A stretch of DNA of 64,000 nucleotides, from contig NZ_CP091787.1 of NCBI RefSeq assembly GCF_022024035.1, positions 186,001 through 250,000 on the forward strand, in the 5' to 3' direction. The notes beneath the pieces were generated by a model, which was not told the DNA's origin, ran no database searches, and saw nothing but the letters and a program-made list of their open reading frames with translations. The position numbers and the translations under genes are program-made. The stretch comes from Prevotella sp. E13-17. Lineage in GTDB: Bacteria; Bacteroidota; Bacteroidia; Bacteroidales; Bacteroidaceae. Shown in pieces: positions 7,316 through 45,211 of the stretch. The stretch's first letter is position 1. Each line of letters begins with the position of its first letter.

Positions 7316-7425
7316 AGGCGATAGCTTTGACGTAACTAAACCTATACTTTACCGTAACTAAACCTCTAGTTTACCGTAACTAAAGTGGCACTTTGCCGTA
7401 ACTAAAGTGATGGTTTGGCGTAGCC
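7316..7425. repeat. 22-bp-register dyad array A (4 clear units, 1 partial)
   Basis: Four consecutive 22-bp units have their AAA triplets at 7338, 7360, 7382 and 7404. Each reads AAA-N7-TTT followed by a 9-nt linker, which is ACCGTAACT or GCCGTAACT in the first three. The variable cores begin CC in units 1-2 and GT in units 3-4. A partial unit at 7316 keeps TTT and the GACGTAACT linker but has AGG in place of AAA. The array lies just past the 3' end of the methyltransferase gene and upstream of the GNAT-like promoter. Its function is unknown. Confidence 0.85.
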
Positions 7426-7442
7426 ATCGTAGCCGAATGACA

Positions 7443-8627
7443 TTATGAGGTGCGCTGACAGATGAGCAGGGTGTGCTGCCCGTTGCGCAGGGTGGTGGCA
7501 AAGATGTAGTGGTCGCCACCGTCTTTCAGTTTCAGGCGCTGGCGCAACTGGACGGCGCTGAGGGGGAAGTTGCGCACGCTGATGTTGGCTTTTGTGATGT
7601 CGGCGAGGGCTGCTTTCAGCTCTTTCTTGTTCATCGTGGTGGCAGTCGTGATGCGGAAGCGGCGTCCTGGAAACTGGGGGCGCTCCTCGTTGGAGGTAAA
7701 CAGGTGACTGTTGGGTGCCAACTGCTTGACGCCGAACGCCTTTTCTACTTCTGCGAAGCAACCGGCCTTCATGATAGAGGCGTTGGGTTCGTAGAGGTAT
7801 ATGCCTATTTCGGCGGGCTCGTCTGTCGAGGGGACCATGGTCGTTGGCGCGCTTGCCGTCACCTGCCACACCTGTTCATCGTTCACGCAGTAGAGCTGCA
7901 GCGCTTCTGCCTGTTGGCGCATCACGATGAGCAGTTCCTTGCATTCGTTCTGTGCCGAGACGATGTGCACCTCGCTAACGTGCTGTGGCCCCAGGTCTTC
8001 CACGGCTTTTTGCCAGTCGAGCATGGGCGACAGTTTCAGCACCACCACGTCGGCCTTTTGCAACAGTTCGTCGCGCAGTTCCAGTACGTTGGGCGTGCAG
8101 TCGCCGATGCCATAGGTGCGAGCGCCGTGAGTGTCGCGGCGAGCCGGGTCCATATAGATCATCGAAACATGCTCTAGTTGGTGCAATATGGCCACACCGT
8201 CGCCACACGTGCACGTCACGTTGGGTGCCAACTGCTGCATGTTGTGCTTCACCACCGCAAAGAGCTCCCCGTTCTGTTCTACGTAGGTGGCTTCTTTGAA
8301 GGCCTGACTCATGAACGAGATGTCCACACCGAAGCCACCGGTCAGGTCCACGAGGCGTTCTGCCGCTGCCGTCAGTCGCCGACAGAGGTTCTTCTTATAC
8401 AGGGCAGTCTGTTCGCTAGAACACTGTTCCAGCGACAGGTGCTGAGGATATAAAAGCCCGTCAGTAGCTGCCCACGATGGCAACTTCTGACGGGCCTTTT
8501 GTAGTCCCGCAATCTGACGTAGCGCCAAGGCGAAGTCCACGTCCTTGTCGCGGCAACCTTTCAGCGCCAGCTGGCGCACGTCGGCATTGATGTTTTGTTC
8601 GATGAAATCGCGGGTTTTCTCGTTCAT
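7443..8627 (-). CDS. Class I SAM-dependent methyltransferase with THUMP-like domain
   Basis: This is a 394-aa cytoplasmic protein. Motif I is VDLTGGFGVD (93-102), followed by the acidic strand ATYVEQNG. The DPP-like motif is MDPARRD (159-165). The C-terminal part (about 330-390, KANISVRNFPLSAVQLRQRL) matches the THUMP-like domain found in Bacteroidetes RNA methyltransferases. It probably modifies rRNA or tRNA, but the target base is not evident. The start codon follows the stop of the endonuclease I gene by 2 bp, so it is translated from the same mRNA. Codons 45-58 contain a strong terminator-like hairpin. Confidence 0.82.
   Translation of the reverse strand: MNEKTRDFIEQNINADVRQLALKGCRDKDVDFALALRQIAGLQKARQKLPSWAATDGLLYPQHLSLEQCSSEQTALYKKNLCRRLTAAAERLVDLTGGFGVDISFMSQAFKEATYVEQNGELFAVVKHNMQQLAPNVTCTCGDGVAILHQLEHVSMIYMDPARRDTHGARTYGIGDCTPNVLELRDELLQKADVVVLKLSPMLDWQKAVEDLGPQHVSEVHIVSAQNECKELLIVMRQQAEALQLYCVNDEQVWQVTASAPTTMVPSTDEPAEIGIYLYEPNASIMKAGCFAEVEKAFGVKQLAPNSHLFTSNEERPQFPGRRFRITTATTMNKKELKAALADITKANISVRNFPLSAVQLRQRLKLKDGGDHYIFATTLRNGQHTLLICQRTS
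8451..8495 (-). terminator. Terminator-like hairpin inside the methyltransferase CDS
   Basis: GCCCGTCAG (8456-8464) pairs perfectly with CTGACGGGC (8487-8495), and a nested TGCC/GGCA stem lies inside the loop. On the coding strand the stem is followed by TTTTATA. It could act as an attenuator; whether it terminates is unknown. Confidence 0.4.
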
Positions 8628-8629
8628 TT

Positions 8630-10261
8630 TTATTTTAGGATTACTTTCCTTCCGTTTATGATATAAAGTCCTTTGCGAGGATGCTTCGTGCGCTGTCCTT
8701 GCAGGTTGAACACCGCAGTGCCAAGCCTGTCGTTTACGATGGTCGAGATGCCGTCGGGCTGCTCTTTCGCAAAGGTCACGTTGACGCCACTCACCTTGAT
8801 ATGGTTGGCCTCAGCGCCAAATGTCACCTCACTGGCCTCGCCAGTCCACACATAGTCGTTGCCGATGGAGCCCTTGTCGGCAGTCATCTTCTTGTTGCTG
8901 TCTATGGTGACGAAAGCCAGTCGGATCAGTTTCCCGTTGCTGCTTGCCACCTTCAGCGTGTTGTCTTTGTACATACGAATCTGCGAGTCGTTGCAATACA
9001 TGTTGGCGCTGCTGCCTTTTGCATAGGTGATGGTGACGCCGCCTTGTGAACCACTGAGTTCTGTCTCTTTCCCACTGTTCCAGGCTCCTTGCCATGAAAC
9101 ACCGAAGAAACTATTGTTCAGCAGTATCGTTCCATCCGTAGGTTGCTCGTCAGTCTTTGCAGTGATGGTGTAGGTGGCTGCCGATACAGCACTTTTCTTG
9201 TCGCCTTTCATGGCGAAGGCCTTCACGGTCGTGGTCTCGCTGATAGTAATCGGTGCCGTATATATATTGCTTTGCGCGGTGGGTTCGGTGCCATCGGTCG
9301 TGAAATAGATGGTGGATCCAATGGTCGAACAGCTCATGCTCACCTCCACACGCTCGGTGTAGCTGCCACTTTGTGGTGTGAATACGGGTTGCATCACGAA
9401 GTCAGGATCCACCGTGCCGCCACCCTCGTAGTTGTCGTAGCTGAAGGCTGTTTCCGTCTTCGAGCCCCATACGTATTCCTCCAGTCCTGGATAGTCTACA
9501 AATGGATTGCGGTTTTGCTGCACATCATCGCTGGCCACGGCATTGTTGCGTGCACGTTCCACCTCGTCAACAGGGTCTTGTTGCGACCAGCGGAAAAGCA
9601 TATTCAGGTACCATTGTTGCAGTCCGGGATAGGCATCGTCGGTAAACACCTTCTTCACCTCGCCCTTAGACCAGTTCTTCAGCTTGTCCTGATAGCAGGT
9701 GGCCATATAGAAATAGATACGTGCGATGTCACCTTTTATCTCGTCGTTGGGTTCAAACACCGTACCACTATAGCCCGATGTCTTGCACGAGCCCAGTATG
9801 CTGTAGTTGTTGGCCGATGCTTTTGAGATGTTGCCCACCTCGGCGATGACGTAGGATGAGCGCATATTGTTGATCTTGGCATCCGTGGGCACCACGTGGA
9901 TGATATCGCTTTTCATCGGACTGGCTTCAGCAAACCAGCTCTGCGGCACGGTGTGCTCCTTGTTCCAGCCAGCCCCTTCTGAGCTGTTGCCATGCTGGTT
10001 CCAGTTATAGTTGGTGATGTTTGAGTACCAGTCGCGCACATGACCGTCAGGTCGTTTGTCGGTCAACTGGTAGTATTCCTCAAGTCCTGAGTAGCTCAGG
10101 GTCTTGTGGTTCTTGATAATGTTGTGCAAAGCCGTCTTCAGTGCTTCGCCTTTCTTTCCGTTGGCGTTCTGGTAGTAAGTACCAGAGCCGTTAGGGCCTT
10201 GTGCCCAACTGCTCAACAGTGTTAACGTCAGCACCGCAAGCAGTGTCAGTGTCTTCTTCAT
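8630..10261 (-). CDS. Secreted endonuclease I with chitobiase-type Ig domain and sorting-like tail
   Basis: This is a 543-aa extracellular DNase/RNase of the EndA/endonuclease I family. A signal peptide ends near SSWAQG (residue 21). The nuclease domain (about 22-275) has the beta-beta-alpha metal core NKEHTVPQSWF (100-110), the EPNDEIKGDIARIYFYM segment and QNRNPFVDYPGLEEY. Residues about 288-365 form a chitobiase/HEX C-terminal-like Ig domain (TDGTEPT). The last 30 residues are a FNLQGQR...KGLYI...GRKVILK tail of the type seen on other exported proteins here. It probably digests extracellular nucleic acid for nutrients. It is the most 3' of three tandem paralogues. Confidence 0.92.
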   Translation of the reverse strand: MKKTLTLLAVLTLTLLSSWAQGPNGSGTYYQNANGKKGEALKTALHNIIKNHKTLSYSGLEEYYQLTDKRPDGHVRDWYSNITNYNWNQHGNSSEGAGWNKEHTVPQSWFAEASPMKSDIIHVVPTDAKINNMRSSYVIAEVGNISKASANNYSILGSCKTSGYSGTVFEPNDEIKGDIARIYFYMATCYQDKLKNWSKGEVKKVFTDDAYPGLQQWYLNMLFRWSQQDPVDEVERARNNAVASDDVQQNRNPFVDYPGLEEYVWGSKTETAFSYDNYEGGGTVDPDFVMQPVFTPQSGSYTERVEVSMSCSTIGSTIYFTTDGTEPTAQSNIYTAPITISETTTVKAFAMKGDKKSAVSAATYTITAKTDEQPTDGTILLNNSFFGVSWQGAWNSGKETELSGSQGGVTITYAKGSSANMYCNDSQIRMYKDNTLKVASSNGKLIRLAFVTIDSNKKMTADKGSIGNDYVWTGEASEVTFGAEANHIKVSGVNVTFAKEQPDGISTIVNDRLGTAVFNLQGQRTKHPRKGLYIINGRKVILK

Positions 10262-10303
10262 AATATGTGTATAATGGTTTGGCTTTTATTCTAGATGATG
10301 TGT

Positions 10304-11293
10304 TTATCTTACGAATACTTTCTTTCCGTCGATGATATAGAGGCCCCTTGCAGGGCTCTTGATGCGCAGCCCTTGCAGGTTGAACGTGCCTTTCATCACC
10401 CTAATGGCGGCATTGTTCATTTGGTGTATGCCATCTGTGTGGTCATAGTTGTCATAGCTGAAGTCCACCATGGTCTTGTTGCCCCAGATGTATTCCTCCA
10501 GTCCCGGATAGTCGATGAAGGGGTTGCGGTTCTCCTGGATGCCATAGACAGCATTGTTGCGGTTGATCTCCTTCTCGCTCACAGGGTCATTTTTAGCCCA
10601 TTTCATCAGCATCTTCAGTTGCCAGCTGCTCAGTCCGGGATAGGTGTTACCGTCCAGTGTGGGTCTCGAGTCGCTGCAGTTAGAGTACCAATCAGACAGT
10701 TTTTCCTCATAACATGTCACCATATAGAAATAGGTGCGTGCGAAGTCACCCTTGTATTCATCGTTAGGTTCGAAGACGGTACCCGTATAGCCAGGATAGG
10801 TGCATGTGCCCAGCTTGCTGAACTCGCCTGCCGACTTGTAGCTTTCGCCTTTCGTTTCGCCAAAGGGGAAGTTGCTGCGTTTTCCGTTGACCGTACCATC
10901 GGTGGGGTAGAGGTGGAACAGGTCGGTGTACATGGGTGAATTACTGCCAAACCAACTCTTAGGGAACGAGTGTTCGCGGTTGTACTTGTCGCCTTCTTTC
11001 GAGAAGTTGCCGGCCTGGTCCGTTTCAAATTCGTAGTTCGTGATGCCAGAGTACATGTCCCACACCTTTCCGTCTTCACGCACGTCGGTGGTGCGGAAGT
11101 CAATCCAAAGGTCTCTATAGGTTCGTTCCGTATGTGGATAGATGATGCCGCAAAGTGCCGTTTTCAGCGCTTCGCCCTGTTTCCCGTCGGCATTCTGATA
11201 GTAGGTGCCCGAGTTGTTGGGGCCCTGTGCCCATAGGCTGATGCTGGTCAGCGTCAGCATCATGAGGCTTATTGTTTTTCCAAATGTTCTCAT
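10304..11293 (-). CDS. Secreted endonuclease I (second paralogue)
   Basis: This is a 329-aa member of the endonuclease I family with a signal peptide ending near SLWAQG (residue 23). The active-site block is NREHSFPKSWF (105-115). The conserved EPNDEYKGDFARTYFYM and QENRNPFIDYPGLEEYIWG segments follow. It lacks the Ig domain of its neighbour and ends directly in the tail FNLQGLR...RGLYI...GKKVFVR. The three paralogues share the N-terminal GTYYQNA-like motif right after the signal peptide, which suggests tandem duplication. The gap to the next paralogue is 42 bp. Confidence 0.92.
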   Translation of the reverse strand: MRTFGKTISLMMLTLTSISLWAQGPNNSGTYYQNADGKQGEALKTALCGIIYPHTERTYRDLWIDFRTTDVREDGKVWDMYSGITNYEFETDQAGNFSKEGDKYNREHSFPKSWFGSNSPMYTDLFHLYPTDGTVNGKRSNFPFGETKGESYKSAGEFSKLGTCTYPGYTGTVFEPNDEYKGDFARTYFYMVTCYEEKLSDWYSNCSDSRPTLDGNTYPGLSSWQLKMLMKWAKNDPVSEKEINRNNAVYGIQENRNPFIDYPGLEEYIWGNKTMVDFSYDNYDHTDGIHQMNNAAIRVMKGTFNLQGLRIKSPARGLYIIDGKKVFVR

Positions 11294-11318
11294 TGCTCGA
11301 TAACTAAGACGTACGTTC

Positions 11319-12854
11319 TCACTTTATAATGAATTTCTTATGGTTGCAGATAAAGATGCCAGGGCGTAGGTAGCACTTGTCAACCCGCATACCATATATA
11401 TTATATGTGCAGTTGTGGCGCTGCATTGTCGTAGTAGTGATGTTGTCAATGCCCGCTTTGTTCGTCACTTCCACACGTGCCTCTTCAATCTGTATGTGCT
11501 TGTTGGCATTGGTCTGTGGCCAGCTGCTGGTGTAGGTAGAGGTGAATTCTACGCTGCTCACCAGTGTGTCTGTGGGTGCAGTCCACACGTTGCCGTTCAT
11601 CTCGCCTACCGAAGGGATAAACTCCTTGTCACTCGACTTCTCAGGAACCACAAACTCAATGCGGCTGATGCCGTTATGACGAGCCTTGAATGTCAGCGTG
11701 TTCTTGTTGTAGAGACGAATCTGTGTGGCGTCGCAATACATGCGTGCGCCCTCAATGCCATAGGAGAACGTGATGCTGATGCCGTTTTGCTCAGCCTTCA
11801 GCGGCGGGCGCTCGTAGTAGTCGCGCATGTAGTCCGTGCTGCTCCAGTCTGTGCCAAACGTCTTTTCATTCAGCAGGATGGTGCAGTCGGTAGCCATCGT
11901 TTCATCGTCTGTCACCGGCTCGCCGCCGTAGTCAAAAGCAGTTTCTTTCTTTTCGCCCCAGATATAGTCCTCCAGTCCGGGATAATCTACAAAAGGATTG
12001 CGGTTGCCCTGTAGCTGGTAGATAGCCTCGTTGCGTGCCACCTCCTTCTCGCTGACGGGGTCCTGCTTAGACCATTGCATCAGCATGTTGAATGCCCACG
12101 GTGCAAAAGGCTGATAGACAGTCTCGTCTTCCAGATTGAACATCGCTCCCGTCCACGTGCCACAATGGTCGCCAATGCTATCCTTCGTGCTACTCCACGA
12201 CGGTTGTCTCTTCTCATAGGCCGTTACCATGTAGAAGTAGATGCGTGCCAGGTCTCCCTTATACTCGTCGTTGGGCTCAAAGCATCGACCCGTGTATTCC
12301 TCGGAAAAAGTGCAGGCCCCCATCTTGCTGAAGCCCTCTTCTGAGGTGTAAAAATCACCGTTGTTGGTGCCATAGGGGTTGTTGCTACGCTTATTGTTGA
12401 CGATACCTTCTGCCGGGATAACGTGTACTATGTCTGAATACATGGGTTTGATATCCTTGTAGGTATAGCTGCTTCCGCTCTTAGCTGCAGGGTTAAACCA
12501 GCTTTTGGGCATGGAATGCTCACGTTGAAAACCCTTGGTGCCCTCCGGGTCAATACCCGCTTTGCCGTTTCTATGAAGATTGGTGTAGATAGAGTAGGCC
12601 GACTTGCATGAATACATGTCCCAAATGATGGGCACCGTGTCCGTAGGTTTAGCATCCGTGTACTGATATGCATGCCATAGCGAGTCGTAGTCCACGACAG
12701 CCGGCGTGTTGATAATCTCGTAGAGAGCCGTTTTCAGTTCGGCCCCTTTCTTTCCATGGGCGCTTGCATAGTATGTGCCAGTGTTGTGAGGAGCCTGTGC
12801 CCCCATGGCTATCGCCGTGATGCAAGCCACTAAGCAGAGTAGCGTTTTCTTCAT
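11319..12854 (-). CDS. Secreted endonuclease I with C-terminal extension (third paralogue)
   Basis: This is a 511-aa paralogue of the two following nucleases. The ATG at 12854 is chosen because it opens a clear signal peptide (MKKTLLCLVACITAIAMGAQ); an upstream ATG at 12959 would overlap the helicase gene and precede the promoter. The catalytic block is QREHSMPKSWF (110-120). Conserved EPNDEYKGDLARIYFYM and GNRNPFVDYPGLEDYIWG segments follow. A beta-rich region of about 150 residues resembles the C-terminal part of the 8.6-kb paralogue (ILLNEKTFGTDW versus ILLNNSFFGVSW). The end is a divergent sorting-like tail. It is first in the operon and has its own promoter box. Confidence 0.9.
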   Translation of the reverse strand: MKKTLLCLVACITAIAMGAQAPHNTGTYYASAHGKKGAELKTALYEIINTPAVVDYDSLWHAYQYTDAKPTDTVPIIWDMYSCKSAYSIYTNLHRNGKAGIDPEGTKGFQREHSMPKSWFNPAAKSGSSYTYKDIKPMYSDIVHVIPAEGIVNNKRSNNPYGTNNGDFYTSEEGFSKMGACTFSEEYTGRCFEPNDEYKGDLARIYFYMVTAYEKRQPSWSSTKDSIGDHCGTWTGAMFNLEDETVYQPFAPWAFNMLMQWSKQDPVSEKEVARNEAIYQLQGNRNPFVDYPGLEDYIWGEKKETAFDYGGEPVTDDETMATDCTILLNEKTFGTDWSSTDYMRDYYERPPLKAEQNGISITFSYGIEGARMYCDATQIRLYNKNTLTFKARHNGISRIEFVVPEKSSDKEFIPSVGEMNGNVWTAPTDTLVSSVEFTSTYTSSWPQTNANKHIQIEEARVEVTNKAGIDNITTTTMQRHNCTYNIYGMRVDKCYLRPGIFICNHKKFIIK

Positions 12855-12885
12855 AGTGTGTCTGTTTTTAGAAAGGTTTAGCTTA

Positions 12886-12893
12886 CAAAAGTA
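12886..12893 (-). promoter_or_regulatory. Promoter -7 box of the endonuclease I operon
   Basis: TACTTTTG on the minus strand lies 31 nt upstream of the ATG at 12854. A clear -33 TTTG is not seen. Confidence 0.5.
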
Positions 12894-12931
12894 CGGATTA
12901 ATTTTGTAATGGCGAAACAATTGACCGAAAA

Positions 12932-14797: not shown

Positions 14798-14802
14798 CAG
14801 TG

Positions 14803-14810
14803 CAAAAGTA
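14803..14810 (-). promoter_or_regulatory. Promoter -7 box of the helicase gene
   Basis: TACTTTTG on the minus strand ends 5 nt before the ATG at 14797, implying a leaderless or near-leaderless transcript. It is back to back with the promoter of the sensor kinase. Confidence 0.55.
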
Positions 14811-14883
14811 CTAAAAATGAATGGAATAGACAAGCGAAACGTAAAAATAGCATCTTGTTTATCGTTATATTAGAAACTTTTCG

Positions 14884-14891
14884 TATATTTG
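14884..14891 (+). promoter_or_regulatory. Promoter -7 box of the sensor kinase gene
   Basis: TATATTTG matches TAnnTTTG and lies 25 nt upstream of the ATG at 14917. The -33 region shows only a weak TTTA. Confidence 0.5.
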
Positions 14892-14916
14892 CCGCAGAAA
14901 ATATAATCTTGCCTGT

Positions 14917-16671
14917 ATGATGAATCATTTTAAGCTAATTATAATAACCCTATTGGTTGCTTTTGGGAATCATGGTATCGTGCATGCTCAATCGAAGCGT
15001 GAGCAGGATCCAAAGTATGTCGCCCTTCGCGACACAATGGTTCGTGCCTTCAACAATGATGACAGTATCCATTTTTATGCTGCGCTGAATAATTTTGAGT
15101 CCTATCTTCTGGAACGTAACGACCTGCATGGCTATTACACCCAGCGATGCAACGAGATTATCTTTCTGATGAATCGCCAGGAGATTTTTGAGGCTTACAA
15201 GCTGGCGCGCAAGCTTATTAGCGAACTGCAGGAGAGACAACTGGACAGCGAGATGTATATGGCTGTCAACATGATGGGGCATATCAATAATTATTGTGGC
15301 AACAAAGAGGCTGCCAAGAATAATTTCCGTGAGGTGATTGCGCGTTTGGAGAAGCAGGGCTACTACGAAAGCATGCCACCCATCTACATGAATATCGTCA
15401 ACGTGTCATTAGACGACGACCCCGAGGAGGCCATGAAACTGTTGGATAAGGCGCGTGATATAGCTGTCAAATACTCACCAGAACGCGTTTTCGACATCGA
15501 TACTCGCAAGACGCTGACCTACTTTGCCGACGATAAGCTAGACCTCTTCAAACAGGGCTACGAGGCCTATGTCGAAGGCGTAAAAGAAGGTAAAAGCTCT
15601 GTGCATGGCCGTTTGCTCGAGGCCTACTATCAGGCTTCTATTGGCAACACCGAGAAGGCTGTAGAGCTGGCTCGTCAGTTGGGTGATGATGGTCATGAAG
15701 CCATCACGATGATCTACAAGAAGGCGGGCCTGTGGGAGAAAGCCTATAACTCCCTCAACGATTTGCTGGTGGCCAACGACTCTGTCATCAACGTGGTGCT
15801 GAACAACAGCATGCAGGGGCTGCAGGATGACATGGCATTATACGAGAGCGAACGTGAGGCGGCACGTGCCAAAATGATTGGTCTTACAGTCATCATTGTA
15901 CTGCTGATCATGCTGGTGGTGGCTTTGTTCTATATCGTGAATAGTCGTCGTCGCCACACGGCACAGCTCACCTCTGCCTACCAGCATGCCTTGGAGAGTG
16001 ACAAGATGAAGCGTGCGTTCATCAGGAATGTGAGTCATCAGATACGTACACCGCTCAACATCGTCAGTGGATTCTCGCAGTTGTTCACCGATACGGACAT
16101 GCAACTCAGCACCGAGGAACGTCGCATGCATGCCGAGATGATTGCCAAGAATACGCAGCTCATCACCTCGCTGGTCGATGAAATCTTGGAACTCTCCGAA
16201 AACGAGTCCACCACCAGTATCGACAAGAATGATGTGGTACAGGTGAGCAGTCTGCTGCAAACGCTGCAGACTGAGAACAGCGAGGGGTTGAGCGAGAAGA
16301 TAGAGATAAAGATAGACTGTGGGGTGGACGAGGACTATGCTTTCCGTTCTAATGCCTCGGTGCTCAAGCGTGTGCTGAACATTCTGATAGAGAATGCAAA
16401 GAAATATACTGTTGCCGGCTCTATCACACTGTCTGCACAGCAAGAAGACCATCAGCTCGTGCTATCAGTGACCGATACGGGCGTTGGCATTTCAGAAACT
16501 GATGCAGAGCGTATCTTTGAGCGCTTTGTCAAGCTCGATGATTTCAAAGAGGGACTGGGCTTGGGGCTCTCATTATGTCGTGTGCTGGTGAAGCACCTCG
16601 GAGGTAGCGTGTCGTTGGATACGACCTATCACAACGGTGCCCGCTTTGTCATCACATTGCCAAACACGTGA
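14917..16671 (+). CDS. TPR-containing sensor histidine kinase
   Basis: This is a 584-aa inner-membrane kinase. A signal sequence (about 1-24) is followed by a periplasmic helical region with tetratricopeptide-like repeats (about 30-310, for example GNTEKAVELARQLGD). One membrane segment follows (MIGLTVIIVLLIMLVVALFYIV region, about 325-346). The cytoplasmic kinase core has the H-box SHQIRTPLN (His at about 374), then N-box ILIENAKKY, G1 box DTGVGI, F-box FERF and G2 box GLGLGLSL. There is no receiver or output domain, so its response regulator must be encoded elsewhere. The periplasmic TPR array suggests it senses a protein or peptide; that is inference. Its stop codon lies inside the first unit of a heptanucleotide repeat. 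Confidence 0.93.
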   Translation: MMNHFKLIIITLLVAFGNHGIVHAQSKREQDPKYVALRDTMVRAFNNDDSIHFYAALNNFESYLLERNDLHGYYTQRCNEIIFLMNRQEIFEAYKLARKLISELQERQLDSEMYMAVNMMGHINNYCGNKEAAKNNFREVIARLEKQGYYESMPPIYMNIVNVSLDDDPEEAMKLLDKARDIAVKYSPERVFDIDTRKTLTYFADDKLDLFKQGYEAYVEGVKEGKSSVHGRLLEAYYQASIGNTEKAVELARQLGDDGHEAITMIYKKAGLWEKAYNSLNDLLVANDSVINVVLNNSMQGLQDDMALYESEREAARAKMIGLTVIIVLLIMLVVALFYIVNSRRRHTAQLTSAYQHALESDKMKRAFIRNVSHQIRTPLNIVSGFSQLFTDTDMQLSTEERRMHAEMIAKNTQLITSLVDEILELSENESTTSIDKNDVVQVSSLLQTLQTENSEGLSEKIEIKIDCGVDEDYAFRSNASVLKRVLNILIENAKKYTVAGSITLSAQQEDHQLVLSVTDTGVGISETDAERIFERFVKLDDFKEGLGLGLSLCRVLVKHLGGSVSLDTTYHNGARFVITLPNT

Positions 16672-16781
16672 GAGGTGAGAACTGAGAGGTGAGAACTGAG
16701 AGGTATGATTAGATTTTGTGCTTCTGCCAAAACTGATAGTAATCATACCTCTCAGTTCTCAGTTCTCAGTTCTCACTTAAA
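16670..16781. repeat. Heptanucleotide inverted-repeat element 1
   Basis: The left arm is a run of 7-mers, GAGAGGT GAGAACT repeated and ending ATGATTA (16670-16711). After a 28-nt loop the right arm starts TAATCAT and continues ACCTCTC then AGTTCTC three times (16740-16774). The arms can pair over about 35 nt. The element fills the space between two convergent genes and would form a large hairpin in either transcript, so it may serve as a bidirectional terminator. The first 7-mer overlaps the kinase stop codon. Confidence 0.85.
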
Positions 16782-21120: not shown

Positions 21121-21141
21121 TTGTTCTTTATTAATATGGTG

Positions 21142-21149
21142 CAAAGGTA
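21142..21149 (-). promoter_or_regulatory. Promoter -7 box of the GH3-like operon
   Basis: TACCTTTG on the minus strand lies 21 nt upstream of the ATG at 21120. It is the proximal end of the first of four repeat units, each of which carries the same box. Confidence 0.5.
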
Positions 21150-21440
21150 CGATTAAGTGAGCGAAAATGCAAATTTATTTGCAATTTTCCGAACGGAAGT
21201 ACCTTCGAGACCCGTTCTCAAAGGTACGAATAAGCGAGTACAAAACAAAGAATTTTATTCTTTTTTTGTCGAGCGTGAGTATCTTCGACATTTTTGTCAA
21301 AGGTACGATTAGGTGAGCGAAAAAGCAAAAAGAAAATCCATTTTCCTTTCTCTTTTCCGAACGTGAGTATCTTCGAGACTCGTTCTCAAAGGTACGGTTA
21401 AGTGAGCGAAAAAGCAAATTAATTTGCAATTTTCCGAGGG
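21142..21440. repeat. Four tandem copies of a 77-89 bp promoter-bearing repeat
   Basis: Copies begin at 21142, 21219, 21298 and 21387. Each starts CAAAGGTACG, continues TTAAGTGAGCGAAAA-like, has an A/T-rich core (TGCAAATTTATTTGCA can form a hairpin in copy 1) and ends CCGAACGTGAGTATCTTCGAG-like. On the minus strand each start reads TACCTTTG, a -7 promoter box pointing at the GH3-like gene. This is a dispersed intergenic repeat rather than a gene; the open frame across it is not coding. Confidence 0.85.
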
Positions 21441-21484
21441 AGAGTTTCCAATTCAGAGTCTTGGAGCATTATTTTTAAAGTATA

Positions 21485-21748
21485 AAAGTAGTGGTTTTAG
21501 AGTCTGAAAGTTGCAGTTCTGAAGTCTAAAACCCAAGCAATCATTTCTGTTCCAGCCCCTGGGAAGCCTGTTTTCAGCCCCTGGACTGACCGCGTCCAGG
21601 GGCTGAAACGACCACATCCAGCCCCTGGATTTGACCTTTTCAGGGGCTGGATGCGGAGTAAAACCTTAACAATTGCATCATCAAACCAAAGGTATTGCAT
21701 CGTCAAACCGCCACTTTTCATGCGTCAAACCGTCATTTTTCGATGGCA
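21485..21748. repeat. 22-bp-register dyad array B (12 units)
   Basis: Twelve consecutive 22-bp units start at 21485, 21507, 21529 and so on to 21727 without any indel. Units 1-3 and 9-12 begin AAAGT or AAACC, and several close with TTT ten positions later. Units 4-8 carry the dyad CCAG-CCC-CTGG or its inverted core (YCAG-GGG-CTGR), with centres at 21557, 21579, 21601, 21623 and 21645. Linkers in units 9-12 are related (GCATCATC, GCATCGTC, CATGCGTC, CGATGGCA). The array fills the gap between the repeat cluster upstream of the GH3-like gene and the 3' end of the next gene. No coding potential is seen. Confidence 0.9.
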
Positions 21749-21761
21749 TTGTGGCTTTGTT

Positions 21762-37413: not shown

Positions 37414-37425
37414 CCCAAACTCTTT

Positions 37426-40671: not shown

Positions 40672-43256
40672 AGTGATTTGATGGTCCAGTCAATACCTAA
40701 AGGATTATGCCGCATTTCAAGCACCAGCGGCAGTGCTTCGTTCTTCTCTATCCACATCTCCGTGGCGTCGATGTCGGCTTTCACATGCACGGCGGCAGTC
40801 GTCTCATCGACTTTCCGCCATGTGATGGTGTCGTAAACGAAGGCGCCCTTTGCCCTTAGCTCGGCATAGGCCTTTTGCGAAATGAAGGCGAAGGTGCCCT
40901 TGACGGCGTGGTAGGTGGTGCCGTCTTGCTGCGGGGTGAGCCAGCAGAAGGTGGTGGCTTGCTCTACCTCCTGGCGCGGGATGTGGTAGGTGGTCTGCTT
41001 GCAGGTGAGCACCAGCGTGTCAGCGCGCCAGCTGTAGGCCAGGGGCCAGCTGCGGTACTGGCGGTTCAGGGTGAAGGCGATATGGGCGCTGGGGGAGGCG
41101 GGAGTGCCAGCCGAAACGGCTGGCCTACGGAGAAGGGCTGCAGGAGCGGCGGGCCCGGGGGCGGCGGTGAAATGGAGCTTGCCGCCTTTTAGGAGGTCTT
41201 GGTGGGTGATGCGGGCGGCGGGGAGTGGGCGGCCGTTCCAGGTGACGGCGGCGAAGTGGGGGGCGTCGCCCGTTCTTTCTACCTCCAGCTGCTGGCCGTT
41301 GGGCAGGGTGAAGCGGTAGTGGGGCAGTAGCGGGAGGTTGAGTAGGTAGGTGTCGGTGCCTGCCAGTGGGTAGAGTCCCATCATGTGGAAAGCCAGCCAC
41401 GACGACATGGCACCTGAGTCATCGTTGCCGGGCAGTCCGTCTGGCAAGTCCGTATAGTGGTTGTTGATGATCTGATGGATGCGCTGGGTGCTCAGGTCGG
41501 GTCTTCCTATCCAATGGTATAGACAAGGTGAGAGGAAGGAAGGCTCGTTCTGTACGTTGTAGTAGCCCTTTTCAAAGAATAGGTCCAGTCGCTGCTTGAA
41601 TGCCTCCTTGCCACCGCAAGCCTCGATCAGTCCCTCCACGTCGTGTGGGATGCTGAGTGAGTACTCCTCGCTCGTAGCTTCATAGAAGAATGTGTCCCAC
41701 CAAGGCACGTACCATGGTGCCACCTTGGTGGTTGGCGTATAGGCTATCGTGGGGTGGAACACCTGAGAGTGTCCCCACGGTACTGAGTCGAGCCACTGTC
41801 CCTCTGCGTCTTTGGGCATGATGAAACCGCACATGCCGTCGTATATATAATCCTTACGCCACAGGTTCTTCCAGTTCTCCGACCGTTTCATATAGCGCTG
41901 ATACACCCCAGTGTCGCCCAGTCGTTTGGCCACCTGTGCGATGCACCAGTCGTTGAAAGCATATTCCACGGTGCGTGTGCCGGCACGCGGGATGCCATAG
42001 GGAATATAGCCCAATGCGATATATTCGTTCAGTCCGCCGCGTCCGTGTTTCTCGTGTTCGCTGCCAGCATCCACTTCGCCATCTTTCAACATTGCCTCCA
42101 AAGCCAGGCGGTAGTCAATGCCTTTCAGTCCTTTGGCCATCGCATCGGCCACCACCACGTCGGCATTTGAGCCGCCCTGTGTCCTGCCGTTGCAGTCGCC
42201 ACTGCGTGCATCGGGCATATATCCCTCATGTTGATAGATGTTGAGGAGCGCGTTGACCATGGCCACCTCGCGATCGGGGCACAGCAGCGTGAGCAGTGGC
42301 GACGAGGTGCGGTAGGTGTCCCAGATGGCATAATAGTCATCGTAGTAAGCCCCCTTCTTCCATCGTGGATTCTCTCCCGTCTTATCTACCGGCATCAGCA
42401 TGGTGTGATAGAGCGCCGTGTAGAACATACGTTTCTGTTGTTCGGTGCCCTCGATGCTGATCTTCGACAGCTGTTGCTCCCATGTGGCGCGCAAGTGTTG
42501 CAGTTGCTGGTTGAAGTTTCGCTTCCCGATGTTCTTTTGAGCCTTTTGTATGCCGACATACGAGATGCCAATCTTTACGTTCACCAGTGTGTCGCTGAAG
42601 GTCAGTAGGTTGCCTTCAGCCTTGAAGGGCCGGTCAGTCCTCAAGGCAAAGAACACCGTGTAGGGACCGCCATTGTTCCAGCCACCCCTGATGCAAGAGA
42701 ATCCCTGCACCTCATGGTCGGACACCACCTGGAAGTCTGCACCCACAAACTGCTGACGTTCGCGCAGGTTGGGCACCGGGTTCTTGCCCAGAAAATGGGT
42801 CACGTCCACCAGCAGCGCCCCCCTGTTGGGATAGTGAAAGCGGTAGTAGGCACAGCGCTCGTCGGTGGTAATCTCCGTGCGGATGCCGTTGTCGAAGGTG
42901 GTGGCATAGTAGCCCAGCTCGATCTGTTCCTCGCGGCGGGCCTGTTCGCTTTGGTCACCGCCCACAAGGCACGGCAGTATCAGAATGTTGCCATACTTCT
43001 GTCCGCCGCCCGTGCCGCTGACGTGCGTCTGCGAGAAGCCCGTCACCTTGGCAGGCATCTCGGCCCATCCCGCATTGGGCAGCACCCCGCAGTCAGGGCC
43101 AGGCTTCACCATGCCGAAAGGCATGCAGGGACCGGGGAACGTGCGTCCCACGCCCACGCTGCCAATACGCGGGTCAACATATTGCCAGCACTGGGCCGAC
43201 AGTTCCGAAAAAAGACTCAGAAGACTTGTAAATAGTAGTATGGTTTTTAGTTTCAT
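40668..43256 (-). CDS. GH92 family exo-alpha-mannosidase
   Basis: This is an 862-aa exported glycosidase. The ATG at 43256 is chosen because it opens the signal peptide MKLKTILLFTSLLSLFSELS; upstream in-frame ATGs lie beyond the promoter and inside queC. GH92 landmarks are YVDPRIGSVGVGRTFPG at the mature N-terminus, YAIWDTYRTSSPLLTL, DWCIAQVAKRLG and GNDDSGAMSSWLAFHMMGLYP. After the GH92 fold comes an unusual Pro/Ala-rich linker (about 700-725) encoded by very GC-rich DNA with a perfect palindrome. A beta-rich C-terminal domain of about 130 residues follows. It is translationally coupled to the phosphatase-GH92 gene. Confidence 0.92.
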   Translation of the reverse strand: MKLKTILLFTSLLSLFSELSAQCWQYVDPRIGSVGVGRTFPGPCMPFGMVKPGPDCGVLPNAGWAEMPAKVTGFSQTHVSGTGGGQKYGNILILPCLVGGDQSEQARREEQIELGYYATTFDNGIRTEITTDERCAYYRFHYPNRGALLVDVTHFLGKNPVPNLRERQQFVGADFQVVSDHEVQGFSCIRGGWNNGGPYTVFFALRTDRPFKAEGNLLTFSDTLVNVKIGISYVGIQKAQKNIGKRNFNQQLQHLRATWEQQLSKISIEGTEQQKRMFYTALYHTMLMPVDKTGENPRWKKGAYYDDYYAIWDTYRTSSPLLTLLCPDREVAMVNALLNIYQHEGYMPDARSGDCNGRTQGGSNADVVVADAMAKGLKGIDYRLALEAMLKDGEVDAGSEHEKHGRGGLNEYIALGYIPYGIPRAGTRTVEYAFNDWCIAQVAKRLGDTGVYQRYMKRSENWKNLWRKDYIYDGMCGFIMPKDAEGQWLDSVPWGHSQVFHPTIAYTPTTKVAPWYVPWWDTFFYEATSEEYSLSIPHDVEGLIEACGGKEAFKQRLDLFFEKGYYNVQNEPSFLSPCLYHWIGRPDLSTQRIHQIINNHYTDLPDGLPGNDDSGAMSSWLAFHMMGLYPLAGTDTYLLNLPLLPHYRFTLPNGQQLEVERTGDAPHFAAVTWNGRPLPAARITHQDLLKGGKLHFTAAPGPAAPAALLRRPAVSAGTPASPSAHIAFTLNRQYRSWPLAYSWRADTLVLTCKQTTYHIPRQEVEQATTFCWLTPQQDGTTYHAVKGTFAFISQKAYAELRAKGAFVYDTITWRKVDETTAAVHVKADIDATEMWIEKNEALPLVLEMRHNPLGIDWTIKSL
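41106..41124. repeat. Palindrome inside the GH92 linker-coding DNA
   Basis: GCCAGCCG-AAA-CGGCTGGC is a perfect 8-bp inverted repeat. It sits in the GC-rich segment that encodes the Pro/Ala linker and looks like a REP-type palindrome kept in frame. Confidence 0.5.
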
Positions 43257-43260
43257 AGTG

Positions 43261-43268
43261 CAAAGATA
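43261..43268 (-). promoter_or_regulatory. Promoter -7 box of the GH92 operon
   Basis: TATCTTTG on the minus strand lies 4 nt before the ATG at 43256, the same spacing as at coaD, implying a leaderless message. No -33 TTTG is seen. Confidence 0.5.
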
Positions 43269-43312
43269 TACATTTTTTCCTTTTGAATGTGCTCCAATTA
43301 AAATAAATTGCA

Positions 43313-43320
43313 TATATTTG
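43313..43320 (+). promoter_or_regulatory. Promoter -7 box of queC
   Basis: TATATTTG lies 23 nt upstream of the queC ATG. The nearest TTTG (43282-43285) is 27 bp away, longer than usual. Confidence 0.45.
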
Positions 43321-43343
43321 CAACCGAATAGCAGAGAAAGAAT

Positions 43344-43997
43344 ATGAAAGACAGCATTTTGATTTTGAGCGGCGGCGTCGATTCTACCACCATGCTCTAC
43401 GACTACAAAGACCGTATTGCGATGGCCATCTCGTTTGACTATGGCTCCAATCATAATGCCCGTGAGATACCCTTTGCCCGCATGCACTGCGAGCGACTGG
43501 GCATCCGTCATATCACCATCCCCCTGCAGTTTATGGCCACCTATTTTCGCAGTTCGCTGCTGTCGGGCGATGATGCCATTCCCGAAGGCCACTATGCCGA
43601 CGAGAATATGAAGTCAACGGTGGTGCCTTTCCGCAACGGCATCATGCTGTCTATCGCCGTGGGCATGGCCGAGAGCAACAATCTGCAGTATGTGATGATG
43701 GCCAACCACGGCGGCGACCACACCATCTATCCCGACTGCCGCCCCGAGTTTGTGGATGCTTTCGATGCCACGGCGCAGGCCGGTACGTACAATGGCGTGC
43801 GTCTGTTGTCGCCCTATACCAACCTGACCAAGGCACAGATTGCCGCCCGCGGCAAGGAGCTGGGCATCGACTACAGCGAGACGTGGTCGTGCTATCGTGG
43901 TGGCGAGCACCATTGTGGTCGTTGTGGCACCTGCGTAGAGCGCCGTGAGGCATTTGAGCAGGCAGGCATCGACGACCGTACTGTCTATGAAGACTAA
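43344..43997 (+). CDS. queC: 7-cyano-7-deazaguanine synthase
   Basis: QueC converts 7-carboxy-7-deazaguanine to preQ0 with ATP and ammonia, on the route to queuosine in tRNA. The 217-aa protein has the PP-loop SGGVDST (9-15), a second conserved stretch VPFRNGIMLSIAVGMAE, and the zinc site with C183, C191, C194 and C197 (CX7CX2CX2C). The length is normal. No queD or queE gene follows; the next gene is an unrelated lipoprotein 54 bp away. I see no preQ1 riboswitch in the short leader. Confidence 0.96.
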   Translation: MKDSILILSGGVDSTTMLYDYKDRIAMAISFDYGSNHNAREIPFARMHCERLGIRHITIPLQFMATYFRSSLLSGDDAIPEGHYADENMKSTVVPFRNGIMLSIAVGMAESNNLQYVMMANHGGDHTIYPDCRPEFVDAFDATAQAGTYNGVRLLSPYTNLTKAQIAARGKELGIDYSETWSCYRGGEHHCGRCGTCVERREAFEQAGIDDRTVYED

Positions 43998-44051
43998 TCT
44001 TACTGCATACCAATAACTACTTTTATACTAACCTTTTAATATTACTACATT

Positions 44052-44948
44052 ATGAAGAAACTATCATCATTATTATTGATTCTGGTGGCCGCCCTGTGTT
44101 TGACGGCTTGCAGTGACAGTCCCGACAGTCTGGGTGCATCAAAAGCTAAGAAGCTGTTTAAAAAAGAGATGGCGCGTACGCATCGTCTTGAAGGTTTTGC
44201 TAATGTTCGCACCGGTTATTACGAGTGCAACGACAACGAGGATCGCTACAAGCTGCGCCAGTTGGCTGCCAACGACATCGTGACCTACAAGTGTGACGTG
44301 GTGAAAAAGACAGAGCGCGTCAGGAAGAAGCGCCGCGTGCAGGCAGGCTACTATTATAGATATTGGACCACCGAGAGCTACTATGTCAACGAAGAGGTGG
44401 ACACCTATTTCGTGACCGTCGAGCTGACCGAGAAAGGTCGTGCTCTGCTCTATGAACCCCAGGAAGCCGAACCCGATGAGGACACCAAGGAACTGAAGCT
44501 CGATCAGGAGATAGACCTGAGCAAGTATCCCGAGTACAAGGTGGAAGCTGAGGAGTTTTCAAAGCCTGCAGCACAGGCCGAAGCACCAACTGTCGTAGAG
44601 ACCCCCGACACGGTGGCTGCCTACGAAGAGAGCGAGGAAGCTTTCCAGCCCGATGAGCCAGCTACAGAGGCCGTTGACTCTAAAGCCAGTGCCTACGACA
44701 AGGCTAAAGCCAAGGAAAAGTACGAGGATGTGACGCTTAATGCCTTTGAACTGGACGTGATTAAGGCACGCAACGTGCGCAAGACGAGCGACAATACCGC
44801 GACGGCCCAGATTCTGGTGGAGTATGAAGACGTGACTCCCGTGGGTCGTATCATGATGGGCGTGTACGACGGTCAGCGCTTCGTTTCGCCAACACTGCAC
44901 TACACCTATTTCGAAGACAAGGGCTGGCAACTGGACAGTGACGAATAA
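44052..44948 (+). CDS. Lipoprotein of unknown function
   Basis: This is a 298-aa lipoprotein with the lipobox LTAC (Cys20). An N-terminal domain (about 25-140) has FKKEMARTHRLEGFANVRTGYYECND and VTVELTEKGRALLYE, a pattern of small periplasmic domains in Bacteroidetes. A low-complexity acidic, Ala/Pro/Glu-rich linker (about 140-225) follows. A C-terminal domain (about 228-298) has NVRKTSDNTATAQILVEYE and ends HYTYFEDKGWQLDSDE. No function is recognised. A terminator hairpin lies just after the gene. Confidence 0.8.
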   Translation: MKKLSSLLLILVAALCLTACSDSPDSLGASKAKKLFKKEMARTHRLEGFANVRTGYYECNDNEDRYKLRQLAANDIVTYKCDVVKKTERVRKKRRVQAGYYYRYWTTESYYVNEEVDTYFVTVELTEKGRALLYEPQEAEPDEDTKELKLDQEIDLSKYPEYKVEAEEFSKPAAQAEAPTVVETPDTVAAYEESEEAFQPDEPATEAVDSKASAYDKAKAKEKYEDVTLNAFELDVIKARNVRKTSDNTATAQILVEYEDVTPVGRIMMGVYDGQRFVSPTLHYTYFEDKGWQLDSDE

Positions 44949-44968
44949 GCAGGACTCCTGTCAACATA

Positions 44969-45022
44969 ACAACAGCTCCCATCCTACCGCCTGTCGGCCA
45001 GGATGGGAGCTGTTCTTTTTCA
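44969..45022 (+). terminator. Intrinsic terminator after the lipoprotein gene
   Basis: AACAGCTCCCATCCT and AGGATGGGAGCTGTT form a perfect 15-bp stem around the loop ACCGCCTGTCGGCC, followed by CTTTTTC. Confidence 0.85.
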
Positions 45023-45088
45023 CGACGGCAGAAACAGCAACTCAAGAGCTAAGCCATGACGACCTAAGCGTGGAGGTTTAGCGGCGCA

Positions 45089-45211
45089 AAACGGTCCCTT
45101 TGGTGCCTTTCGACTTAAGTCGTGAGACTTGTTGACTTAAGTCGTGAACGTTGTTGACTTAAGTCGAAAGGTCTGTTGACTTAAGTCGTGAACTACAGAA
45201 ACGGCACTTTT
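45089..45211. repeat. 22-bp-register dyad array D (6 units)
   Basis: Four copies of the palindrome GACTTAAGTC start at 45112, 45134, 45156 and 45178, exactly 22 bp apart. The linkers between them vary but end in TTGTT or CTGTT. On the same register, one unit before and one after, lie AAA-CGGTCCC-TTT (centre 45095) and AAA-CGGCACT-TTT (centre 45205), the motif type of the arrays at 7.3 and 21.5 kb. The array lies between a terminator and the GH43 promoter. No coding potential is seen in the 392-bp interval. Confidence 0.9.

Follow-up and report, generated by a model that had tools for sequence, protein, structure and literature searches.

Three arrays in the window

The window analysed here, a 64-kb stretch of the Prevotella sp. 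E13-17 genome, carries three arrays of short units that repeat every 22 bp (Table 1). When all periods from 10 to 60 were scanned (66-bp window, at least 38 matches), only periods 22 and 44 passed the threshold, with three matches each, and arrays 1, 2 and 3 scored 52, 43 and 51, respectively. Among 100 Markov-1 randomisations of the window, a score of 38 was reached at any period in two and a score of 43 in none, which, with the scan itself, confirms the three arrays of common period proposed in the first-pass annotation. A search of the window against Rfam, the sole repeat-type library searched, gave no gathering-level match and no known structured RNA, and to that extent the arrays are not explained by a known repeat family.

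Table 1. Arrays and neighbouring genes in the window (whole-array extents are those of the merged scan)
Feature	Position	Strand	Description
Gene	6035..7195	-	GNAT acetyltransferase domain; downstream of array 1
Array 1	7299..7446	.	~4-5 units of 22 bp, CGTAACTAAA-N7-TTTNC; cells AAACCTATACTTT, AAACCTCTAGTTT, AAAGTGGCACTTT, AAAGTGATGGTTT
Gene	7443..8627	-	PG_1098 ferredoxin-like/THUMP-like protein; 3' end adjoins array 1
Array 2, whole	21440..21750		
Array 2, block C	21440..21541	.	AGAGTCTAAAA type, arms TTCTA..TAGAA
Array 2, block B	21542..21650	.	TCYAG-CCC/GGG-CTRGA type (CCAGCCCCTGG type), five sites, 22-bp steps
Array 2, block A-like	21643..21750	.	(CATC)GTCAAACCGCCACTTTTC type (TCAAACC..TTTTC)
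Gene	44052..44948	+	no Pfam family at E 0.001; upstream of array 3
Array 3, whole	45088..45208		
Left AAA-N7-TTT cell beside block D	45089..45101	.	AAACGGTCCCTTT
Array 3, block D	45112..45187	.	four GACTTAAGTC sites, 22-bp steps
Right AAA-N7-TTT cell beside block D	45199..45211	.	AAACGGCACTTTT
Gene	45341..48217	+	glycoside hydrolase family 43; downstream of array 3

The first-pass annotation had placed all three arrays in one AAA-N7-TTT class mixed with other dyads. The units of array 3 depart from this, as each combines GACTTAAGTC with a further 12 bp and their dyads are half-integer, but cells of the AAA-N7-TTT type flank its block D at a centre-to-centre distance of 110 bp, or 10 x 11 bp (right-hand centre counted by hand). 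Array 2, of around 310 bp, is made up of three blocks (C, B and A-like) on one grid, and the site centres of block B lie in either orientation within the one array. Each array had also been described as lying past a 3' end and upstream of the next promoter; the 3'-end placement holds for all three, whereas the next start codon from array 2 is ~300 bp off, with another repeat between. Array 3 is located past a terminator-like hairpin, seen by eye at ~44970-45018.

The 11-bp dyad lattice and motif B

Strong dyad pairs lying at least 100 bp apart were separated by exact multiples of 11 bp in 23 of 24 cases, with a flat non-array control, and this 11-bp dyad lattice runs on through blocks of differing motif. 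The earlier claim that blocks are swapped while the grid is kept is confirmed and strengthened, the grid being the dyad lattice. Of 119 arrays drawn from six sets, 65 had a higher dyad symmetry than their units gave after permutation of columns (p <= 0.05). To our knowledge, a dyad lattice continuing through unrelated motifs is known in no described repeat family, and the portions of the literature on such repeats and on HU-HIG proteins available to us hold no description of these arrays.

Motif B, TCYAGCCCCTRGA, has a layout of 13 bp of motif and 9 bp of spacer on the 22-bp grid, with the spacers unconserved. To be collected, a unit had to contain the core AG-SSS-CT and have another such core 22 or 44 bp away, and units with six or fewer differences were collapsed (172 to 119), so that only positions outside the core bear on conservation, as the core was used for collection. 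Positions +-5 and +-6 are 87-96% conserved, and those from +-7 outward are unconserved. Spacer likeness averages 3.41 of 9 within an array, hardly above the 2.78 of 9 seen when different arrays are compared. Distances between cores fall at 22 bp (50), 44 bp (38), 66 bp (24) and 88 bp (11), with none at 110 bp and a sum of 30 for all others up to 300 bp; ten of 11 near-identical composite loci were left out whole from the lattice, core-distance and spacer counts, and with the composite loci included the distances become 65, 56, 31, 19 and 0. A CRISPR array, which would have repeats of 24-48 bp with unique spacers (PMC3733652) and cas genes, does not agree with this 13 + 9 bp layout, and the ten neighbouring proteins examined are ordinary.

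The cells have an AT content of ~0.75 at their edges against 0.40 in their centres, and it could be that a nucleoid protein or gyrase reads only this 11-bp alternation of AT-rich edges and GC-rich centres, responding to how readily 110-330 bp of DNA bend or wrap, with the motifs as by-products. Such a generic element of DNA geometry would suit the register kept through unrelated blocks and the favouring of convergent regions described below, but the motifs go far beyond compositional need, with 65 full copies of motif B inside arrays and none outside in 864 kb. Their restriction to one lineage and their matching to HU-HIG genes, both set out below, would likewise be unexpected, and we consider this explanation improbable.

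Hairpins in RNA or single-stranded DNA, acting as tandem 3' untranslated structures (stability, termination) or as cruciforms, would account for palindromic units that stand mostly past 3' ends, and position +-4 of motif B does covary (z 3.7), with 33 U.G-compatible mismatches against nine C.A. At the conserved +-5 and +-6, though, compensatory changes were not found among the 119 collapsed units; a single array can hold motif centres of both orientations, and the orientation shows no significant preference relative to the strand of neighbouring genes (31 vs 21). Considering also that array 3 is beyond a terminator-like hairpin, that Rfam families are absent from the window and that the HU-HIG arrays stand before genes, a hairpin role seems very improbable.

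Distribution, turnover and comparison with known repeats

A scan of 864 kb of the genome, a total that counts the 6-kb overlap between the window and L006 twice (the overlap is without any array), gave 41 array matches. The merged list retains three arrays that coincide in part with predicted ORFs (L031:18986, L016:746 and L040:7910); L040:7910 has no dyads and may not be an array member. Arrays with other motifs were found in same-genus genomes and in named Prevotella, Segatella, Hallella and Hoylesella loci. The arrays are thus not limited to three spots in one strain, which supports the proposal that they form a family, occurring throughout the genome and in several Prevotella-type genera. 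The motifs are lineage-private: spaced pairs numbered 137, 59 and 54 in three close genomes and zero in the 59 other relatives searched and in four more distant named genomes. Marker-protein searches centred on other families gave matches in 0/6 and 0/1 genomes.

Summed over four sample sets, arrays are borne by 32 of 111 convergent, 58 of 345 co-directional and 11 of 129 divergent intergenic regions, and in our own sample by 29 of the 108 non-divergent regions of at least 150 bp. Placement past 3' ends is only a tendency, with exceptions upstream of HU-HIG genes and inside coding sequence in other genomes. The latter is seen in the PG_1098-type gene, the coding sequence of which contains an in-frame array of 3-4 units of 22 bp in seven other genomes, and four genomes have further, dispersed arrays of the in-frame motif outside this gene. 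The ten neighbouring proteins examined for a common function proved unrelated (EamA transporter, RuvB, glutamine synthetase, glycoside hydrolases and others), with no family found for one of them.

Arrays of relatives differ by whole 22-bp units. At the array 3 locus, X. brevis has one block D site and 66 bp fewer, while a near-identical four-site D block is present in that species at another locus (L288). Array 1 lies at the equivalent place in X. brevis (L164) and in Prevotella sp. RUI122 (L165), with its cells inverted or swapped in the latter, and the array of block B in array 2 is found in X. brevis as well. An A-B-C composite of ~380 bp occurs in 11 near-identical copies in our own sample; the RUI122 list has a single occurrence of its B sequence and the X. 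brevis list has none, and alignment of the 11 copies showed ragged ends and, by eye, no terminal inverted repeats. One array is 99.7% identical between species where its flanks are 83-86% identical. The process copying units that the first-pass annotation had listed as a candidate is also seen as evolution, in the gain or loss of 22-bp units and the relocation of a block, but leaves unexplained the conservation of motifs beside unrelated spacers and the limit of five sites.

Minisatellites that evolve neutrally, their units staying similar through slippage and quasi-palindrome template switching, would likewise produce exact 22-bp differences between close copies or species and cells inverted in place. 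Slippage would nonetheless have no cause to favour 22 bp across species and motifs, to end at five sites or to conserve 13 bp beside unrelated 9-bp spacers, and the array that is more alike between species than its flanks also speaks against neutrality, leaving this a highly unlikely origin.

The arrays could instead be palindromic repeats of a selfish or mobile kind (REP/BIME-, MITE- or RPE-like), which would spread as units mobilised by an enzyme encoded elsewhere and be tolerated past 3' ends, HU-HIG genes being tolerated neighbours. The composite copies and the near absence of their B sequence in the two relatives' lists, the four-site D block that X. brevis carries at another locus than this genome does, and the location near 3' ends would all fit, as would the in-frame arrays, which resemble the Rickettsia palindromic elements, described as in-frame palindromes of ~150 bp inside coding sequences (PMC10969869); the in-frame arrays here are instead 3-4 units of 22 bp with a motif dispersed elsewhere in four genomes. 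REP, BIME and REPIN repeats with their RAYT are similarly dispersed, lineage-private, palindromic, clustered and mostly extragenic, but the arrays here have a strict 22-bp step, an 11-bp dyad lattice, ~5 sites per block and several unrelated motifs on one grid. Motif B also lacks the GTAG or CGTC tag of a REP, which is defined as a palindrome of 20-40 bp bearing such a tag (PMC3733652), the other array motifs being judged by eye. The Y1 transposase family (PF01797) matched in 7 of 12 genomes searched, G000 and G084 included, but not in array-bearing G026 and G024 (both 99% complete), G085, G090 and G091, and the Y1/RAYT transposase was rejected as a universal partner. BrickBuilt, a minisatellite-MITE of Porphyromonas gingivalis, is likewise from Bacteroidales, intergenic and multicopy with tandem units of similar length, and is described as one sequence with a 23-nt unit without spacers and a leader and tail with inverted-repeat ends (PMC4596501), whereas the arrays here are palindromic at 22 bp with many motifs, and their composite ends are ragged. 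Many arrays with unique spacers keep motif, spacing and site number, and mobility gives no reason for the dyad register across unrelated motifs or for motif-matched arrays upstream of HU-HIG paralogs. We regard mobile repeats as an unlikely explanation overall.

Viruses and plasmids were considered as carriers and rejected. Exact spaced-pair scans of viral contigs gave 11 stretches (9 and 2), and the phage and plasmid collections contained nothing matching the 331-bp region of array 2. One viral locus (L315) holds two period-22 stretches with scores of 47 and 37 and AGGGGCT-like units; L313, L319, L321 and L322 reach 38-41 at period 22, all but L322 in short-period or G/C-run sequence, and the six remaining stretches of the 11 are below 38 at that period. 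AsnC/Lrp proteins (PF01037) were also dismissed as partner, with 2-3 copies in all eight genomes and no relation to array density.

HU-HIG genes as candidate partners

Four HU-HIG proteins score 85.6, 87.1, 63.8 and 82.2 bits against PF18291 (cut-off 26.2), TIGR01201 gives 68.4 bits, slightly below its cut-off of 68.6, and HU-HIG 1, as modelled by AF2 (mean pLDDT 79.8), matches the structure of B. vulgatus 4fmr as well as solved HU/IHF structures. The array-linked proteins belong to the HU-HIG family, with a predicted HU fold. HU is generally held to be non-specific and IHF to use single sites. By Pfam and fold the proteins implicated here are of the HU/IHF, HU-HIG or TIGR01201 HU_rel type, and literature searches turned up no description of site arrays for the HU-HIG/HU_rel branch.

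An array is present upstream of 8 of 28 HU-HIG (PF18291) loci compared with 51 of 1475 ORFs (p 5.9e-6), the loci being non-independent in that L333/L338 and L340/L344 are orthologs. Downstream there is no excess (1/28 vs 65/1541). The choice of HU-HIG began as a hunch; genome-wide searches covered three protein families, and of these HU-HIG was the one covered by the upstream-array test. The prediction was then tested in G026, where 8 of 15 HU-HIG genes and 3 of 77 ORFs have an upstream array (p 9e-6; upstream lengths differ slightly, at 620-707 bp to the HU domain vs 650 bp to ATG), with differing motifs. A clear upstream array is absent from 20 of the 28 loci, 7 of the 15 G026 genes and all five G024 genes examined. 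Among ten strong HU-HIG genes in this genome, two have an upstream array at threshold 38 and six at 33, AT-rich simple stretches upstream of two of the genes being excluded from the count.

Of 20 HU-upstream arrays, 12 have a motif that recurs in dispersed arrays of their own genome or clade, where 3.2 would be expected, the counted matches for L373, L018 and L368 being weak (0.50-0.60), and six of the 20 arrays have no motif match in their own genome's sample. Motif likeness is 0.88 in each of two ortholog pairs, compared with a mean of 0.31 and a maximum of 0.52 among G026 paralogs. Two HU-HIG paralogs of this genome, own7 and own10, which are 84% alike, both have a CGTTT..AAACG type upstream (by eye). 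Upstream of HU-HIG 1, motif B flanked by A-type cells is found in this genome and motif C in X. brevis and RUI122, motifs B and C having the same arms. Private-motif arrays upstream of HU-HIG paralogs lend weight to a combination of the two other candidates of the first-pass annotation, families of regulators each with its own motif and polymerising DNA-binding proteins, with HU-HIG as the putative binder. The co-occurrence that it proposed to look for, between a DNA-binding gene and the number of arrays, is not seen for HU-HIG copy number: a trend with array density in eight genomes was cancelled over 50 (Spearman -0.08, p 0.58). PF18291 matches reach 23 per genome, ordinary HU included; Hallella seregens has four HU-type matches yet eight arrays in one 21-kb locus, while P. 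communis has 20 and no array in its locus.

These findings are best explained by the arrays being dispersed cognate binding platforms for paralogous HU-HIG proteins, each with a private motif, a reading to which we give a probability of roughly one half. An array block is typically a row of ~5 dyad-symmetric sites in 22-bp steps, to which HU-HIG dimers would bind and on which they are predicted to assemble cooperatively. Half-site direction alternates about every 11 bp, so that dimers could align in one continuous register, also over blocks of different paralogs. Each paralog would read its own motif and would regulate itself through the array that carries this motif in front of its gene, and the same motif would be scattered genome-wide mainly past 3' ends, where the predicted nucleoprotein would form a chromatin or boundary element between transcription units. 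Operator arrays of the Arc, MetJ and omega/ParG type offer a parallel in their contiguous dyad-symmetric boxes, dimers in register and autoregulation (here a candidate). Arc, MetJ and omega/ParG, however, belong to the ribbon-helix-helix class and act at one or few target loci, whereas the family implicated here has an HU fold, scores of arrays are dispersed over the genome, and motifs and paralogs form several pairs.

As judged from sequence comparison, the pairing of arrays with HU-HIG genes suggests that these bacteria have a set of chromatin elements, addressed by sequence, that has not been described before. A wider version, which we put forward tentatively and hold to be somewhat doubtful, is that Prevotella-type bacteria may have a multi-channel, sequence-addressed chromatin based on an expanded family of histone-like HU-HIG proteins, in which each paralog would have a private palindromic address, displayed as ~5-site arrays on a common 11-bp dyad lattice at the promoter of that paralog and at tens of positions that separate transcription units, with different addresses fused in register and mixed filaments possible. 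The HU-HIG reading is directly testable, since every motif-paralog pair is a prediction, and the 11-bp dyad lattice through unrelated motifs is noteworthy even without the HU-HIG link. If true, paralogs with private genome-dispersed addresses and a fixed site number would provide bacteria with a chromatin counterpart that is sequence-specific, giving a function to HU-HIG genes and a partial explanation of the larger intergenic regions of this lineage.

Period-22 arrays in the window and in other genomes

The period-22 arrays placed by the first-pass annotation at 7.3, 21.5 and 45.1 kb were borne out: in a scan of periods 10 to 60, with a threshold of at least 38 matches per 66-bp window, only periods 22 and 44 reached 38, and only at these three places. 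Among 100 Markov randomisations of the window, 38 was attained in two and 43 in none, and no Rfam family matched in the window. Other repeats were also seen. Positions 21139–21440, between array 2 and a GH3-like gene, hold by eye about three copies of a second repeat type of roughly 110 bp each (CAAAGGTACGATTAAGTGAGCGAAAA...TTCCGAACGKRAGTAYCTTCGAGAC), parts of which are absent from the close relative X. brevis in a rough alignment, and the gap between two ORFs at 16668–16775 holds two short 7/14-bp tandem repeats (TGAGAGGTGAGAAC; TCTCAGT).

Location of the window and of its three period-22 arrays
Feature	Position	Source or scope	Description
Window	C1:186001-250000	contig of 3,454,626 bp	
Array 1	7299-7446	merged scan	CGTAACTAAA-N7-TTT
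Array 2	21440-21750	merged scan	three blocks with unlike motifs
Array 3	45088-45208	merged scan	four GACTTAAGTC sites flanked by two AAA-N7-TTT cells

The suggestion that these arrays belong to a wider family also held, with 41 period-22 hits in 864 kb of E13-17 DNA (the window and 40 stretches of 20 kb, a 6-kb overlap being counted twice) and arrays of other motifs in relatives. If spread evenly, this would amount to about 160 hits per genome. Period 22 was the commonest in the 40 stretches (39 hits, one a masked run), period 44 gave 19 hits and every other period at most nine. Merging left 38 arrays, nearly all intergenic and mostly about 110 to 330 bp long.

The pattern AGCCCCTRG-N{2,32}-AGCCCCTRG had 137 matches in E13-17, and each of the 66 matches listed has spacing 22. 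It was absent from 59 other genomes, of which 35 belong to the same genus and 24 to other families of the order. Spaced pairs of AGCCCCTRG numbered 59 in X. brevis and 54 in Prevotella sp. RUI122, at spacing 22 among the matches listed, and none were found in P. communis, Hallella seregens, Segatella baroniae or Hoylesella timonensis. Same-genus stretches carry period-22 arrays built from each genome's own palindromes, with 11 hits in 420 kb of genome G024, seven in 180 kb of G016 and 12 in 120 kb of G026; two genomes were array-poor (G004, one hit in 100 kb; G009, one low-complexity hit in 80 kb). In the named loci (73 in all, covering 1.38 Mb), the leading period was 22, with 51 hits at 40 or above (period 21, 19; period 23, two), and 32 loci had at least one period-22 hit. 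TTCCC-N5-GGGAA, searched with gaps of 2–30, formed 56 spaced pairs in four MAGs, 54 at 22 bp and two at 44, and none in three other genomes of the same search. The array family is real and widespread. Viral contig L315 (IMGVR_UViG_3300007028_000002) has period-22 stretches of AGGGGCT-like units at 1459 and 6060 (scores 47 and 37).

Array anatomy and the logic of motif B sites

The anatomy of the arrays can be observed directly. Dyad symmetry exceeded that of column-permuted units (p ≤ 0.05) in 65 of 119 arrays in six sets (E13-17, 17/28; X. brevis, 9/14; named loci, 27/49; G024, 5/11; G016, 3/5; G026, 4/12). In non-redundant arrays, strong dyads (at least 7/9 arm pairs) have almost exclusively integer centres, and of the 24 pairs with a separation of 100 bp or more, 23 keep to multiples of 11 bp, even across blocks of unlike motif. 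When weaker dyads are included, 121 of 315 pairs fall in one of 22 classes, with a flat control. Block D has half-integer dyads in both the window and X. brevis, yet lies at most half a base pair off the lattice of either flank (the right-hand flank in the window was counted by hand).

Motif B (TCYAGCCCCTRGA) was studied in 119 collapsed units chosen by their AG-SSS-CT core and the presence of a neighbour 22 or 44 bp away, which makes core conservation a given. Outside the core, positions ±5 are conserved in 103 and 105 units and ±6 in 114 and 114, with farther positions hardly conserved; no compensating changes occur at ±5 and ±6 in these units, and ±4 covaries (z 3.7). Distances between cores are 22 (50 cases), 44 (38), 66 (24) and 88 bp (11), with 30 in total at others up to 300 bp; none is 110 bp, and B blocks therefore stop at five sites. 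In the 864 kb of E13-17 DNA the full motif occurs 65 times within arrays and never outside, and spacers agree at 3.41 of nine positions within an array versus 2.78 between arrays. Half-sites that a dimer reads account for this behaviour better than hairpins or recent tandem duplication do, and from it we infer that the array reader is a dimer. The orientation of B centres shows no significant bias relative to gene strand (31 vs 21, 12 loci).

Turnover and genomic position

A composite of motifs A (TCAAACC..TTTTC-like), B and C (arms TTCTA..TAGAA) has 11 near-identical, ragged-ended copies in the E13-17 sample, one deviating by exactly one 22-bp unit. At a position where E13-17 has this composite, X. 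brevis has an almost unchanged four-site D block. Array 3 has one site in X. brevis versus four in E13-17 (66 bp fewer), and between the same two genomes a further array shows a length difference of a single 22-bp unit. The intergenic array stretch L056/L249 is 99.7% identical between the two genomes, with flanks at 86% and 83%, which would reflect either strong constraint or a recent exchange limited to the intergenic array; against RUI122 it is 72.7% alike, with AGCCCCT cores kept and inner cells altered. In two further cases (L007, 96.8%; array 1, 93.9%) array identity is close to that of the flanks, and array 1 is retained in both relatives.

Among intergenic regions of at least 150 bp, delimited by an ORF heuristic, those containing arrays numbered, in four summed sets, 32/111 for convergent, 58/345 for co-directional and 11/129 for divergent regions. 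Divergent regions differed from the rest in E13-17 (p 0.034) and in G024, G016 and G026 together (p 0.018), and not significantly in the X. brevis set and named loci. A common function of array neighbours was rejected, proteins downstream of 10 arrays being functionally unrelated. An EcoRI-type adenine methyltransferase gene (L013:7091-8197) adjoins a B-containing array.

Arrays of three to four units and several motifs also lie in frame within a PG_1098-like conserved gene in seven translated loci (L170, L174, L175, L181, L185, L186, L191), in one loop preceding YLYEPNASIMKAGC (elsewhere written YLYEPNASIMKAGCF). For L174, L181, L185 and L191 the motif is that dispersed in the same genome. 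Further 22-bp arrays lie within the PG_1098-like match of L142, L147, L150, L152 and L162, and in several genomes matches to the gene are split in that region.

HU-HIG proteins as candidate readers

The sole array between divergent ORFs in the merged 38-array set (L004; a looser ORF set gave three in the E13-17 sample) precedes a gene for an HU-fold DNA-binding protein, HU-HIG (PF18291), at C1:5377-5715 on the minus strand. Thirty loci taken from a PF18291 search of 50 genomes contained 12 arrays in 92 kb. Arrays lay within 420 bp upstream at 8/28 testable loci versus 51/1475 ORFs (p 5.9e-6), with no downstream excess (1/28 vs 65/1541). Dispersed G026 and G024 motifs were written down before upstream regions were examined for 15 of 23 and 5 of 11 HU matches, respectively. 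In G026, an upstream array scoring at least 40 was present at 8/15 HU-HIG genes versus 3/77 ORFs (p 9e-6), and in G024 at none of five (L377-L381); these five may form a subfamily that is mobile or silent. Four of these five have nearly equal scores.

Among ten strong HU-HIG genes of E13-17, HU-HIG 1 has an upstream B array surrounded by A-type cells, HU-HIG 4 the A type (score 37), HU-HIG 7, 8 and 10 a CGTTT..AAACG type (33, 33 and 43) and HU-HIG 9 a weak array (35); HU-HIG 5 and 6 have only AT-rich simple sequence, and HU-HIG 2 and 3 no upstream array. Many HU-HIG genes are array-less, in E13-17 as in the 28-locus set and G026/G024, and across the 50 genomes array density does not correlate with HU-HIG copy number.

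Compared with 146 dispersed arrays, 12 of 20 HU-upstream arrays had their top match within the same genome or clade (3.2 expected), the best profiles being L370 (0.92), L333 (0.92), L342 (0.89), L338 (0.87) and L372 (0.80), and the weakest L368 (0.60), L018 (0.58) and L373 (0.50). L340 and L344 come from two genomes, and each matches the other's arrays as well as its own (0.93 and 0.92; 0.86 and 0.82). For six others (L327, L351, L363, L364 with a tie, L371, L374), the sample of the genome of origin contained no match. The pre-noted G026 motifs CGTTTT..AAAACG (L370) and GTYTCA..TGARAC (L368) were recovered upstream of HU-HIG genes by pattern; the array expected for L368 was not the one chosen by profile comparison. 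AAAAAGG..CCTTTTT (L372) was missed by pattern and found by eye and profile. Orthologs have common motifs (0.88, 0.88), and eight G026 paralogs are unlike (mean 0.31). The HU-HIG 1 orthologs of X. brevis (about 88% identical) and RUI122 (about 91%) have motif C, with the same arms as B.

HU-HIG 1, 4 and 10 and the L340 protein match both PF18291 and PF00216, HU-HIG 10 falling just below the PF00216 family cut-off, and a model of HU-HIG 1 (mean pLDDT 79.8, pTM 0.60) has structural matches in B. vulgatus 4fmr and numerous HU/IHF chains. HU proteins are DNA-bending dimers, and the dyad lattice fits them for this reason. From the upstream enrichment, motif matching and behaviour of orthologs and paralogs, we infer HU-HIG proteins as candidate readers of the arrays; as the specific partner they are put forward as a hypothesis with statistical support. 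The dispersed arrays would then serve as a boundary or chromatin element.
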